Below, piece after piece: positions 13,654-19,684 of a stretch of DNA of 24,486 nucleotides. Under the pieces are notes generated by a model. That model did no database searches and was not told the origin of the DNA. It saw only the letters and a list, made by a program, of their open reading frames with translations. A program made the position numbers and the translations under genes. The DNA lies in the IMG/VR virus record IMGVR_UViG_3300008113_000979, positions 1 to 24,486 of that record; one strand, written 5' to 3'. Every line of letters begins with the position of its first letter. Within the stretch, counting starts at the first letter, position 1. The stretch comes from a virus.

Positions 13654-13743
13654 TGGTGCCCCCAGCGGGAATCGAACCCGCACGGACTTTTTCGGTCCAC
13701 AGGATTTTAAGTCCTGCGTGTCTACCTATTCCACCACAAGGGC
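13654..13743 (-). tRNA. tRNA-Leu(UAA), CCA encoded
   Basis: Acceptor GCCCTTG (13743-13737) pairs with TGGGGGC; T-arm GCGGGTTCGATTCCCGC; anticodon loop CTTAAAA gives UAA. It has a long variable arm, as in Leu tRNAs, and ends ACCA. It is processed from a transcript with flanking coding genes. Confidence 0.95.
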
Positions 13744-13770
13744 ATAAATTACTGTTCTTTAACTTATTTT

Positions 13771-14013
13771 TTATTTTTTATTAGTTAATTTAGATTCTAA
13801 TCTATCAAGACGTGAATCCATTTGACGATAGATATTTTGTGTTTCTTCGTTTATTGTTTTATAAACATTTTCGATTTCACGAGATAACGATATTTCATTA
13901 TGCTCAATTTGTTTTTTTACTTTATTTACCTTAACGAATGCGTAAACAGCAACTATTGCCGTAGCAATAACCACCACAGACGCTATCCCTAAAACGAATG
14001 ATAGTATTTCCAT
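13771..14013 (-). CDS. Single-pass membrane protein with coiled coil, 80 aa
   Basis: The real start is the ATG at 14013 (MEILSFVLGIASVVVIATAI); a longer frame reads back into the tRNA-like gene. Residues 5-27 form a transmembrane helix, followed by VKVNKVKKQIEHNEISLSRE and a heptad-rich coiled coil to the basic end (RLDRLESKLTNKK). Size and layout resemble phage i-spanins or small envelope proteins. It is embedded between two RNA genes. Confidence 0.75.
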   Translation of the reverse strand: MEILSFVLGIASVVVIATAIVAVYAFVKVNKVKKQIEHNEISLSREIENVYKTINEETQNIYRQMDSRLDRLESKLTNKK

Positions 14014-14051
14014 AATTTGTTTCTCCTTATATGTCAAAGAACAGTAATTTG

Positions 14052-14208
14052 CTGTAAGGGTTGGAATCGAACCAACACGCGGCGATTCAATAAACGACAT
14101 TTGTGCTGCAGCTTGTGGTCAACCCTTATCGTTTATCTATCTCGAGCTCCGCACCCACGAGACGAGTGGGCGTGTCTGCCATAGCCTAGGCTATTTCACC
14201 ACCTTACA
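14052..14208 (-). tRNA. Oversized class II tRNA-like gene, about 157 nt
   Basis: Acceptor TGTAAGG (14208-14202) pairs fully with CCTTACA (14059-14053); the T-arm is GTTGG-TTCGATT-CCAAC. The D-arm resembles tRNA-Leu (GTGAAAT...GGCAGACAC) but carries an extra palindrome AGCCTAGGCT. The anticodon-position hairpin is CCCAC-TCGTCTC-GTGGG, with C instead of U at position 33, so the anticodon (GUC if read normally) is uncertain. The variable region is about 80 bases, closed by GCGG/CCGC and containing an 8 bp stem ATAAACGA/TCGTTTAT. It could be a degenerate tRNA, a tRNA with an insertion, or a tRNA-mimic RNA. Its 5' end overlaps the stop of the gene at 14204. Confidence 0.6.
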
Positions 14209-14434
14209 ATTTTCTCTTACTACCACGTCTTCTTGCTTCCTCAGCTTCTTTATAAATACGAATCCAGGTTAGAGTAATATCTACCGGAGCTAATATCCAG
14301 CACATAACAATTAAACCTATACTTTCAAGTCCTGGTGATATGCCTAATCCACCTGCCATAACGTCCCTATTCCATTTTTTAATAGACATTATAATACAGT
14401 AAATAAAACAAGCAACATAATAAGTCCAGAACAT
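14204..14434 (-). CDS. Two-helix membrane protein, 76 aa
   Basis: Residues 1-17 (MFWTYYVACFIYCIIMS) and about 38-58 (ESIGLIVMCWILAPVDITLTW) are hydrophobic, with a glycine-rich loop between and a basic Arg/Lys tail (ARRRGSKRKL). The TAA lies inside the acceptor stem of the tRNA-like gene, an overlap of coding and RNA sequence. Two helices and a basic tail would fit a holin or anti-holin, but the function is not shown. Confidence 0.65.
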   Translation of the reverse strand: MFWTYYVACFIYCIIMSIKKWNRDVMAGGLGISPGLESIGLIVMCWILAPVDITLTWIRIYKEAEEARRRGSKRKL

Positions 14435-14437
14435 AAA

Positions 14438-14647
14438 TTATTGTTTAAAGTGTTTTTCAAGTGCTTCGATCTTATCTTCAGCATCAACTAACATTTGTAA
14501 TGCTTCTTCAGCATTGTTGTAGAAGTCTTTTGTTGAATGATCACCTATCCCTGCTGGGTGGTTCGACAACAAATCTAAAGTTAGTAATGCTTTTGATTTT
14601 TCAGCCATTGCTGATGTCATAAGCATATCGTATAATTCTTTTTTCAT
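14438..14647 (-). CDS. Hypothetical helical protein, 69 aa
   Basis: A soluble, mostly helical acidic protein (MKKELYDMLMTSAMAEKSKA) with a Gly/His-containing loop (HPAGIGDHSTKDF) in the middle and an acidic C-terminal helix. It is 3 bases from the next gene and shares its operon. I do not recognise a family. Confidence 0.65.
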   Translation of the reverse strand: MKKELYDMLMTSAMAEKSKALLTLDLLSNHPAGIGDHSTKDFYNNAEEALQMLVDAEDKIEALEKHFKQ

Positions 14648-14686
14648 ATAATGTCAATTTACAATCTTATTTTGACTTCTCCAAAT

Positions 14687-15148
14687 TTATTTTACAAGAT
14701 GGTCAGCTGCATAAGTCATTACAGGTGATAAACCCTTATGTCTTACCTTATAACCCATACCAGTTACTATACCTACAGCACTTGATAATGCTTGGTTAGA
14801 ACGATATTTTGGATCTGGATTTAGATCGATATCAATCCAGGTTGCTATTATACCAGTTTCATTCTTAATCGCTTCAGCTACTTCAACAGAAAACCATACT
14901 TCGTTTAATAAACGAACGGTATTTTCTCTTTCGCGTTGCGAAGCAAATTTTGAATATAGCACGTGAGCGCCTTTTCCTGGAGTATAGAGACCAATTACGA
15001 TAGCGTATATTGTTTCTCTTTTTCTATTTTGTGAATCACAACCAACTAATATTTCAATATTTGGATGTTGTGAAACATATTCTTTGATATATGGTATTAA
15101 ATCAACCTTTTGATGTTGAGATAAAGTTTTAAATGTTCTGTTCATCAC
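14687..15148 (-). CDS. YkuK-like (DUF458) RNase H-fold protein, 153 aa
   Basis: The motif ILVGCDSQNRK (about residues 33-43), followed by YAIVIGLYTPGKGAHVLYSK, matches the DUF458/YkuK family, which is predicted to have an RNase H-like fold with acidic catalytic residues. Further Asp residues (WIDIDLNPDPK, about 114-124) fit such an active site. The length of 153 agrees with the family. The biochemical role of the family is not established. Its place directly after the Ro60 gene and the structured intergenic RNA region suggests an RNA-processing role, but this is inference. The start MM leaves the second Met as an alternative. Confidence 0.75.
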   Translation of the reverse strand: MMNRTFKTLSQHQKVDLIPYIKEYVSQHPNIEILVGCDSQNRKRETIYAIVIGLYTPGKGAHVLYSKFASQRERENTVRLLNEVWFSVEVAEAIKNETGIIATWIDIDLNPDPKYRSNQALSSAVGIVTGMGYKVRHKGLSPVMTYAADHLVK

Positions 15149-15484
15149 CGATTTTTTTAAAAATTAATAACTGAGAATAACTAACTGAGTGTTTTTCATG
15201 TATAAGCGAAGTAACTCAATTATAACTACAGCATTAAATAAGGTAACCGAGTTAATTGGGGTGAGTCGTTCGGAAGCTCCGAACAGCACTAGGACGTTTA
15301 TGCTCGTTGTCAAGTGCTTTTTACACACCAGTATACGTCCTCTATCCTAGTAACCAGAGGGGGGTTGATTATTGAATCATAATTAATGAGCGGCTTGAAG
15401 CCGCAAAATTTAATTGCGAAGTACCTCACTCCCTTACTACGGTAATATTTTTATCAAAGATCTATTTGTGTATATAAATATATA
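15149..15484 (-). ncRNA. Structured intergenic region after the Ro60 gene, candidate ncRNA(s)
   Basis: This stretch has no plausible coding frame but many stems on the minus strand: GCGGC/GCCGC at 15390-15404, ACTAGGA with TCCTAGT (about 15345/15290), GGACGT with ACGTCC, and a 7 bp hairpin GTTCGGA-GCT-TCCGAAC (about 15283-15267). The stretch GCACTTGAC...GTCCTAGTGC forms a stem with a bulged C. That helix (GUC/GAC plus bulged C) resembles the Ro-binding helix of Y RNAs (GGUCCGA with UUGACC), although capped from the opposite side. Two copies of a UACUUCG motif are present (15207-15214 and 15417-15424). It may hold one or two RNAs working with Ro60. Confidence 0.45.
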
Positions 15485-15504
15485 GGGGCGGCGGTAAACC
15501 GCCC
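15485..15504 (-). terminator. Terminator-like hairpin after the Ro60 gene
   Basis: On the minus strand GGGCGG-TTTA-CCGCC(G)CCC forms a GC-rich stem, starting 6 bases after the stop of the Ro60 gene and followed by TATATATTTATAT. It may terminate, or act as a processing signal before the structured region. Confidence 0.65.
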
Positions 15505-15509
15505 TTATA

Positions 15510-19067: not shown

Positions 19068-19076
19068 TTATTTGTG

Positions 19077-19148
19077 AGGTCAGAGCCAGAATCGAACTGG
19101 CGTAGCAGCTTTTGCAGAGCTGAGCCTAAACCACTCGGCCACCTGACC
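19077..19148 (-). tRNA. tRNA-Cys(GCA)
   Basis: Acceptor GGTCAGG pairs with TCTGACC, discriminator T as usual for Cys; anticodon stem-loop CAGCT-CTGCAAA-AGCTG; D-arm GCCGAGTGGTTTAGGC. Confidence 0.95.
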
Positions 19149-19154
19149 TTATTG

Positions 19155-19227
19155 TACTCCCGAAGCGATTCGAACGCTTATTCCTAGATCCGTAGTCTAG
19201 AGTCCTAATCCATTGAACGACAAGAGC
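19155..19227 (-). tRNA. tRNA-Arg(ACG)
   Basis: Acceptor GCTCTTG pairs with CGGGAGT; anticodon stem-loop CTAGA-CTACGGA-TCTAG. A34 would be edited to inosine by TadA to read CGU/CGC/CGA. Confidence 0.95.
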
Positions 19228-19232
19228 AATTG

Positions 19233-19353
19233 CGGGGAAGGTTGGATTCGAACCAACTATTTTACTGTTGCAGAGTAATTTTTAACCGAAGTAACTCTTA
19301 TCATTACTATCATTGCTGAAGAAATTCGACAGAGTGTTTTGAATTTCTTCCCC
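19233..19353 (-). ncRNA. tRNA-like RNA with perfect acceptor and T-arm, about 121 nt
   Basis: GGGGAAG (19353-19347) pairs with CTTCCCC (19240-19234), possibly extended to 8 bp by C/G, and the T-arm GTTGG-TTCGAAT-CCAAC is canonical. Between them lie 88 bases instead of about 41. The would-be D-loop lacks GG. GAAGAAATTC and GAATTTCTTC form a 10 bp hairpin that competes with the acceptor stem. An anticodon-like hairpin TTACT-CTGCAAC-AGTAA would read GCA, and the UUACUUCG motif is present. Acceptor plus T-arm with replaced middle is the tmRNA and tRNA-mimic design. A degenerate tRNA with an insertion is the alternative. Confidence 0.6.
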
Positions 19354-19358
19354 GTTAG

Positions 19359-19429
19359 CACCCACTTACAGACTCGAACTGCAATCAACGGTTTTGGAGA
19401 CCGGCATGTTACCATTACACCAAGCGGAT
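19359..19429 (-). tRNA. tRNA-Trp(CCA)
   Basis: Acceptor ATCCGCT pairs with AGTGGGT, discriminator G; anticodon loop CTCCAAA on stem CCGGT/ACCGT; T-arm TGCAGTTCGAGTCTGTA. Confidence 0.94.
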
Positions 19430-19459
19430 GTTTAATACCAATATGTCAAAGATCATTTG

Positions 19460-19533
19460 TACCCCCTACAAGATTCGAACTTGTGACTCCTAAATTAAAA
19501 GTTTAGTACTCTATCCATCTGAGTTAAGAGGGT
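19460..19533 (-). tRNA. tRNA-Lys(UUU)
   Basis: Acceptor ACCCTCT pairs with AGGGGGT, discriminator A; anticodon stem-loop CTAAA-CTTTTAA-TTTAG; T-arm ACAAGTTCGAATCTTGT. Confidence 0.95.
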
Positions 19534-19611
19534 ATATTCATTCCCTCTTCTACTAGAGGGAGACTATCGTTTTCGTTTAGTTATCTTTCGTTTCATTTTT
19601 TATAGTTTGTG

Positions 19612-19684
19612 TGGTGAACCTCAGTTCCGAGCTGAGTCCTCGAGATTTTCAGTCTCGCGCTTCTACCAAGTTAGCTTGATCACC
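19612..19684 (-). tRNA. tRNA-Phe(GAA), variant T-loop
   Basis: Acceptor GGTGATC pairs with GTTCACC (one T-T mismatch), discriminator A; anticodon loop CTGAAAA. The T-arm CTCAG-CTCGGAA-CTGAG has C54 and G58 in place of T54 and A58. It is the first tRNA of the array in transcription order. Confidence 0.9.

Follow-up and report, generated by a model that had tools for sequence, protein, structure and literature searches.

The window analysed here, which is the entire IMG/VR record IMGVR_UViG_3300008113_000979 (24,486 bases), carries on its minus strand a dense array of transfer RNA (tRNA) genes, a gene for a Ro60/Rsr-like RNA-binding ring protein with a TROVE domain, a transfer-messenger RNA (tmRNA) gene and, within the tRNA array or just past the Ro60 gene, five elements (A, B, E, F and G) that have a hairpin core in common. 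ARAGORN finds 24 canonical tRNAs between positions 13654 and 19684, which cover all 20 amino acids, and Rfam gives the identical 24. With a ClpP-like head maturation protease close by, and in a record from IMG/VR, these 24 genes on one strand make up a large phage tRNA array. An earlier reading of the window, hereafter the original prediction, took the region for a tRNA island; the tRNAs are indeed there, but an RNA family linked to Ro60 in the gaps between them was overlooked. In our reading the region is probably an RNA-maintenance island of a tailed phage, in which a near-minimal complete tRNA set is combined with the Ro60 protein and several Y-RNA-like partners.

The tRNA array and its codon reach

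The tRNA set for all 20 amino acids that had been predicted was confirmed by both programs, and the pairs for Leu (TAA and TAG), Arg (TCT and ACG) and Gly (TCC and GCC) were borne out by ARAGORN. The predicted number of 26 tRNAs was too high, since 24 genes pass ARAGORN and Rfam, the latter with two quirks of scoring (Ser-TGA is taken as tRNA-Sec, and Phe stands at 43.5 bits). The best count is 25, because two relatives (L006 and L010; all relatives are metagenomic or database records) carry an ordinary Ser-GCT between His and Ile, at the position where the window has a degenerate gene that ARAGORN sees only with a lowered threshold. Thus, of the two serine tRNAs expected, Ser-TGA passes, while Ser-GCT is present in degenerate form. 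Likewise, the expected initiator-like and elongator Met tRNAs correspond to two genes with the anticodon CAT, but alignment gives no confident assignment, and one of the two may be Ile2.

By the standard wobble rules, the set of 25 tRNAs reads nearly all sense codons, with the exception of CGG, and of AUA unless Ile2 is present. When the anticodons were compared with the codon use of the open reading frames (ORFs) in the window, a check put forward with the original prediction, a near-complete reach was found, with gaps at CGG and possibly AUA. CGG, which is read by neither Arg ACG nor Arg TCT, accounts for 0 of the 193 Arg codons, and AUA, the reading of which needs an Ile2 or Ile-TAT tRNA, for 169 of the 442 Ile codons. 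With nearly all codons read, the phrase 'self-contained translation-support island' used earlier for the region is a fair description.

Complete or near-complete tRNA sets are already known as phage equipment, and among the relatives with comparable arrays one locus reaches 35 tRNAs. In addition, a distant relative (L015 and L017, 2519-2592 in both) has a tRNA with a CTA anticodon, called Pyl, which is a possible amber suppressor, and a group I intron lies downstream of the tRNA array in L005 (6387-6586).

A hairpin core in the gaps of the array

Comparison of the inter-tRNA gaps across relatives brought out a core motif that consists, in this order, of stem 1, UAGUAA, stem 2, UUACUUCG, an insert, an A-rich AAAC, the partner of stem 2, UUCU and the partner of stem 1. 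At phage loci, 66 of the 128 distinct motif sites close into a high-scoring hairpin, compared with a mean of 0.8 for shuffled and 3.5 for swapped downstream sequence. The inserts of the core fall into classes of 14-37 and 72-110 nucleotides, with one further insert of 146. From 18 short-insert elements, which came from neither the window nor the near-identical relative L002, we derived a covariance model, R1; in this training set, two-sided changes occur in 12 of 15 pairs, and the 5' and 3' ends form a stem that has conserved internal loops, as in Y RNAs. Up to an E value of 1, R1 has exactly five matches in the 24.5-kb window, namely G, E, B, F and A, all on the same strand and confined to the tRNA array and the stretch just past the Ro60 gene, with F and G directly 3' of the latter. 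On 44 control loci, R1 gave nothing below E 0.5. R1 also has matches next to Ro60 in three further phages, namely the huge phage LR745206 and the gut phages cr111_1 (a member of the Crassvirales) and csAssE-Sib.

The elements differ in what they hold inside the core (Table 1). Element B encloses tRNA-like arms (a D arm, a T arm and an anticodon-like arm), and 29 consensus pairs are found in seven phages, 10 of them with two-sided changes. The homologue of element A in L038 has the anticodon GTG. Elements A and F also carry the core motif, and it is mainly this motif and their position that support them, as their R1 matches are weak (19218-19317, E 0.27 for A; 15381-15447, E 0.054 for F). Searching Rfam with relaxed thresholds gave no known family for the window elements A-G. 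Two of these, C (17853-17949, with a homologue in L004) and D (17708-17769, with homologues in L004 and L005), are closed-stem RNAs between tRNAs, likewise with no Rfam match.

Table 1. Features of the array and its surroundings in the window
Feature	Position	Strand	Evidence
tmRNA with 77-bp internal deletion	13003..13312	-	Rfam RF00023 81.5 bits, cut-off 47; alignment with L002
tRNA-Leu(TAA)	13654..13743	-	ARAGORN, Rfam
Leu-like tRNA body, ~80-nt variable-arm insert, non-canonical anticodon loop	14050..14208	-	sequence; L005 homologue
Y-RNA-like element G, short form	15166..15236	-	R1 E 3.3e-9
Y-RNA-like element F, long insert	15243..15447	-	core motif in relatives; far boundary by eye
Ro60/Rsr-like protein (TROVE)	15510..17048	-	Pfam TROVE 36.5 bits, cut-off 23; phrog_850 E 1.5e-28
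tRNA-Leu(TAG), Arg(TCT), Gly(TCC), Thr(TGT), Met(CAT)	17142..17532	-	ARAGORN, Rfam
Y-RNA-like element E, short form	17540..17629	-	R1 E 5.1e-7
tRNA-Met(CAT), possibly Ile2	17629..17703	-	ARAGORN; alignment does not settle identity
tRNA-Asp(GTC) 17773-17847, Glu(TTC) 17953-18025	17773..18025	-	ARAGORN, Rfam
Y-RNA-like element B	18030..18141	-	R1 E 2.5e-4
tRNA-Tyr(GTA), Asn(GTT), Ile(GAT)	18180..18419	-	ARAGORN, Rfam
Degenerate tRNA-Ser(GCT)	18425..18506	-	lowered-threshold ARAGORN; canonical orthologue in L006, L010
tRNA-His, Ser(TGA), Gln, Gly(GCC), Val, Ala, Pro, Cys, Arg(ACG)	18511..19227	-	ARAGORN, Rfam
Y-RNA-like element A: tRNA-Cys(GCA)-like body, core in D loop	19231..19353	-	sequence
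tRNA-Trp, Lys, Phe	19358..19684	-	ARAGORN, Rfam

tRNA-like modules and Ro60 in related phages

Scanning IMG/VR for the core with a T-loop sequence close behind it yielded 56 stretches, about 50 of which were judged real by inspection. Among 49 elements with inserts of 60-130 nucleotides, 14 hold a tRNA in normal order. The remaining 35 inserts were circularised, and 30 of them yield a tRNA that spans the junction, compared with 0 of 30 shuffles and 22% of chimeras in which different elements were joined; in real and control sequences alike, the search for the junction was limited to one small set of positions. The core is attached to these bodies at the anticodon stem, the variable loop or the acceptor, and in window element A at the D loop of the tRNA-Cys-like body. 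Furthermore, the nearest body has a different anticodon for 83% of the permuted modules (18 modules compared) as against 28% of the canonical tRNAs, and the anticodon loops of the modules are well formed, with U33 in 24 of 28 and a purine at position 37 in 26 of 28. In well-covered loci most of the permuted anticodons duplicate that of a canonical tRNA, and the idea that they make up for missing canonical tRNAs was therefore rejected. Literature searches, with most subscription papers beyond their reach, turned up no account of permuted tRNA-like modules within the tRNA arrays of phages. The tRNA-Tyr and tRNA-Lys annotated in csAssE-Sib (accession number OR575929; 5666-5738 and 5811-5884 in L125) lie inside a Y-like core, and it is unlikely that they are ordinary tRNAs.

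The Rfam model of YrlA, a bacterial Y RNA, matches over its full length (positions 1-114) in L089 (E 4.6e-10 and 2.8e-9) and L043 (E 2.1e-6 and 6.6e-6), and further matches are found in L063, L115 and L125. The YrlA consensus is itself permuted, in the order T arm, closed acceptor and D arm, and modules permuted in this way are found in L043 and L089. No such module is found in the window, where B is linear, A has its insertion in the D loop, and E and G are without a tRNA-like part; strictly, the five window elements are not YrlA members, as none of them is matched by the model. As for the Ro60 protein, a TROVE gene is present in 26 of 40 tested contigs with elements, and in 22 of 36 after four that had been collected via Ro60 were dropped, while 37 of 50,697 phage records have a protein similar to the Ro60 of the window. 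A scan of bacterial genomes with the core pattern gave mostly chance matches in coding sequence, together with L113, which is a copy of the L070 contig. Convincing bacterial elements are found in L089, L099, L109 and L115 only, two of which are Chitinophaga, and in all four loci a Ro60 gene shares the contig with the core and lies no more than about 4 kb from it. Because of the YrlA matches, the Ro60 linkage and the R1 matches beside Ro60, we read the elements as Y RNAs in a broad sense. Copies of GOLLD RNA also occur in the tRNA/Ro60 islands of relatives (L005 7491-7917; L013 5913-6328; L109 1268-1741 and 3004-3478).

Both the tmRNA and the Ro60 gene that had been predicted beside the array are present, but the tmRNA is incomplete. 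In comparison with L002 (99.5% identical over the shared region) it has lost 77 bp, including the tag end ADYALAA; L002 encodes DELSTMTFDDLMAFVGADYALAA, while the residual frame of the window tmRNA is DELSTMTFDDLMAFVGRLIK, so that the tag is not intact. It is because of this deletion, which may be either a true variant or an artefact of assembly, that ARAGORN gives no tmRNA call in the window. Elsewhere in the window, the ORF at 3836-5197 has long Ser/Ala-rich and Lys/Glu-rich low-complexity stretches and matches nothing in Pfam or PHROG. A host in the phylum Bacteroidota is hinted at, but no more than that, by the lipoprotein-like genes and the occurrence of relatives in Chitinophaga, Saprospiraceae, Prevotella and crAss-like phages.

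Interpretation and comparison with known systems

We give a probability of about 70% to the reading of the region as a tailed-phage island for RNA maintenance. The tRNAs, the Ro60 gene, the covarying hairpin core, the permuted and intact tRNA-like inserts of the relatives and the linkage with Ro60 are observed; from these, the elements are predicted to be Y RNAs bound by Ro60, many of which would mimic tRNAs but with their anticodons exchanged. We assume that the Y-RNA-like partners might be transcribed in the same array as the tRNAs, that Ro60 would bind the stem of the core, and that the tRNA-like modules could present a tRNA surface to tRNA-binding enzymes, while the canonical tRNAs would sustain phage translation once host tRNAs are cut or become limiting. 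The Ro60-Y RNA complexes might then act either as a nuclease tether for RNA clearance, like Rsr, Y RNA and PNPase in Deinococcus, or as decoys that sequester the tRNA-cleaving enzymes of defence systems. Our preference is for a role as decoy or tether, since the anticodon loops of the mimics stay well formed even though the anticodons change on a conserved body. A full tRNA set together with a series of mimics with exchanged anticodons would fit a defence against tRNA-cutting enzymes.

Several results weigh against this reading. The R1 matches of A and F are weak (E 0.27 and 0.054), and single-sequence folding of E, G and B is not unusually stable. Every YrlA match is under the curated cut-off of 69 bits, the best relative reaching 49.8, and the YrlA model matches none of the five window elements, its only hit in the window being a partial match of 23.9 bits inside tRNAs. 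The background of 0.07% for Ro60 is a lower bound, as it counts only records similar to the window's own protein, and 14 of the 36 contigs, some of them longer than 100 kb, are without Ro60 even by phrog_850. In addition, the anticodon comparison comprises 18 modules, and some of the anticodon calls are uncertain.

Among the alternatives, the strongest is that the complete tRNA set makes up for host tRNAs that nucleases of phage or host destroy, and that everything else is incidental; to this we give a little less than an even chance. The coverage of all 20 amino acids and nearly all codons speaks for it, and the loss of host tRNAs, which the original prediction had supposed, agrees with published studies of phage tRNAs and of anticodon nucleases, which provide precedents (PMC10264068, PMC11555353). 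However, it leaves the Ro60-linked elements unexplained, though it is compatible with them.

It is improbable, in our estimation, that the core of about 60 nucleotides is a self- or protein-assisted splicing element, by which tRNA genes of these phages that are permuted or interrupted in the D loop would be cleaved at U|A...ACUU|C and their pieces joined to give functional tRNAs. Joining at fixed sites gives perfect 5-bp anticodon stems in many modules, such as Asn CTCGT-CTGTTAA-ACGAG in L028 and Gly CTCGC-CTTCCAT-GCGAG in L059, some modules encode CCA, and the frequent U33 and purine 37 would suit real tRNAs. However, acceptors closed by a GNRA loop (L025 and L043) cannot mature, YrlA already shows the identical permuted topology, the linkage with Ro60 is strong, and the anticodons vary on one body and are mostly redundant. 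The RtcB ligase, considered as a splicing partner, was absent from the nine contigs tested. It is the anticodon swaps, the redundant anticodons, the GNRA-closed acceptors and the absence of RtcB that make us favour mimics over spliced tRNAs. If true, core-driven splicing of phage tRNAs would be a route unreported in bacteria and phages in the literature searched. Least of all do we expect the region to be a tRNA array only, with decayed tRNAs and intergenic remnants between its genes, since, although several elements resemble broken tRNAs to ARAGORN and Rfam and Ser-GCT is itself degenerate, this is contradicted by the covarying pairs with both sides changed, by the occurrence of this core in relatives that have a Ro60 of only 50-80% identity, and by the independent detection of the elements with R1.

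Ro60 and Y RNAs span bacteria to humans. In this phage family, many Y-like RNAs, which retain their anticodon loops but have exchanged anticodons, are set among the tRNA genes and constitute a natural series of variants with which decoys of anticodon nucleases could be told from nuclease tethers. They also give a warning that phage tRNA counts include Y RNA modules annotated as tRNAs, as in the two cases of csAssE-Sib and in several of the ARAGORN calls at these loci.

The tRNA kit itself belongs to a familiar type, while mimics among tRNA genes are undescribed in this form in the sources searched. Mycobacteriophages of cluster C1 have an average of 33 tRNAs (PMC10264068) and Shigella phage Sf14 has 26 tRNAs for 19 amino acids (PMC12482277), so that many tRNAs for nearly all amino acids are a common trait, with the difference that the present record covers all 20. 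Theta ribozymes, which are of the hepatitis delta virus (HDV) type, are similar in being structured RNAs that adjoin phage tRNAs, but the paper on them (PMC10879173) mentions neither permuted tRNA-like modules nor Ro60, and no HDV-type family matches the window up to E 5 in Rfam 15, whether or not this includes the theta model. In Deinococcus, a Y RNA tethers the Ro60 orthologue to PNPase (PMC7790460; the complex is also described in PMC12282133); the phage island resembles this system in its Ro60 and Y RNA partners and in possible tethering, but its partner nuclease is hypothetical. A study of a Listeria phage suspected Y RNAs near a Ro60-like gene and found these RNAs to be highly transcribed (PMC12282133). 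The nearest likeness in structure is to the YrlA-type bacterial Y RNAs (Rfam RF02553; Chen et al. 2014, as cited in PMC7790460 and PMC12282133), for the tRNA-like part of which competitive inhibition of an anticodon nuclease has been proposed (PMC7790460). Like them, the phage elements have a permuted tRNA-like module in a hairpin beside Ro60/Rsr, with matches of the full-length model in relatives. Unlike them, they occur many per phage, interleaved with tRNA genes, their anticodon arms are kept and exchanged, the D loop, variable loop, anticodon stem and acceptor serve as further points of attachment for the core, and there are short forms without any tRNA-like part.

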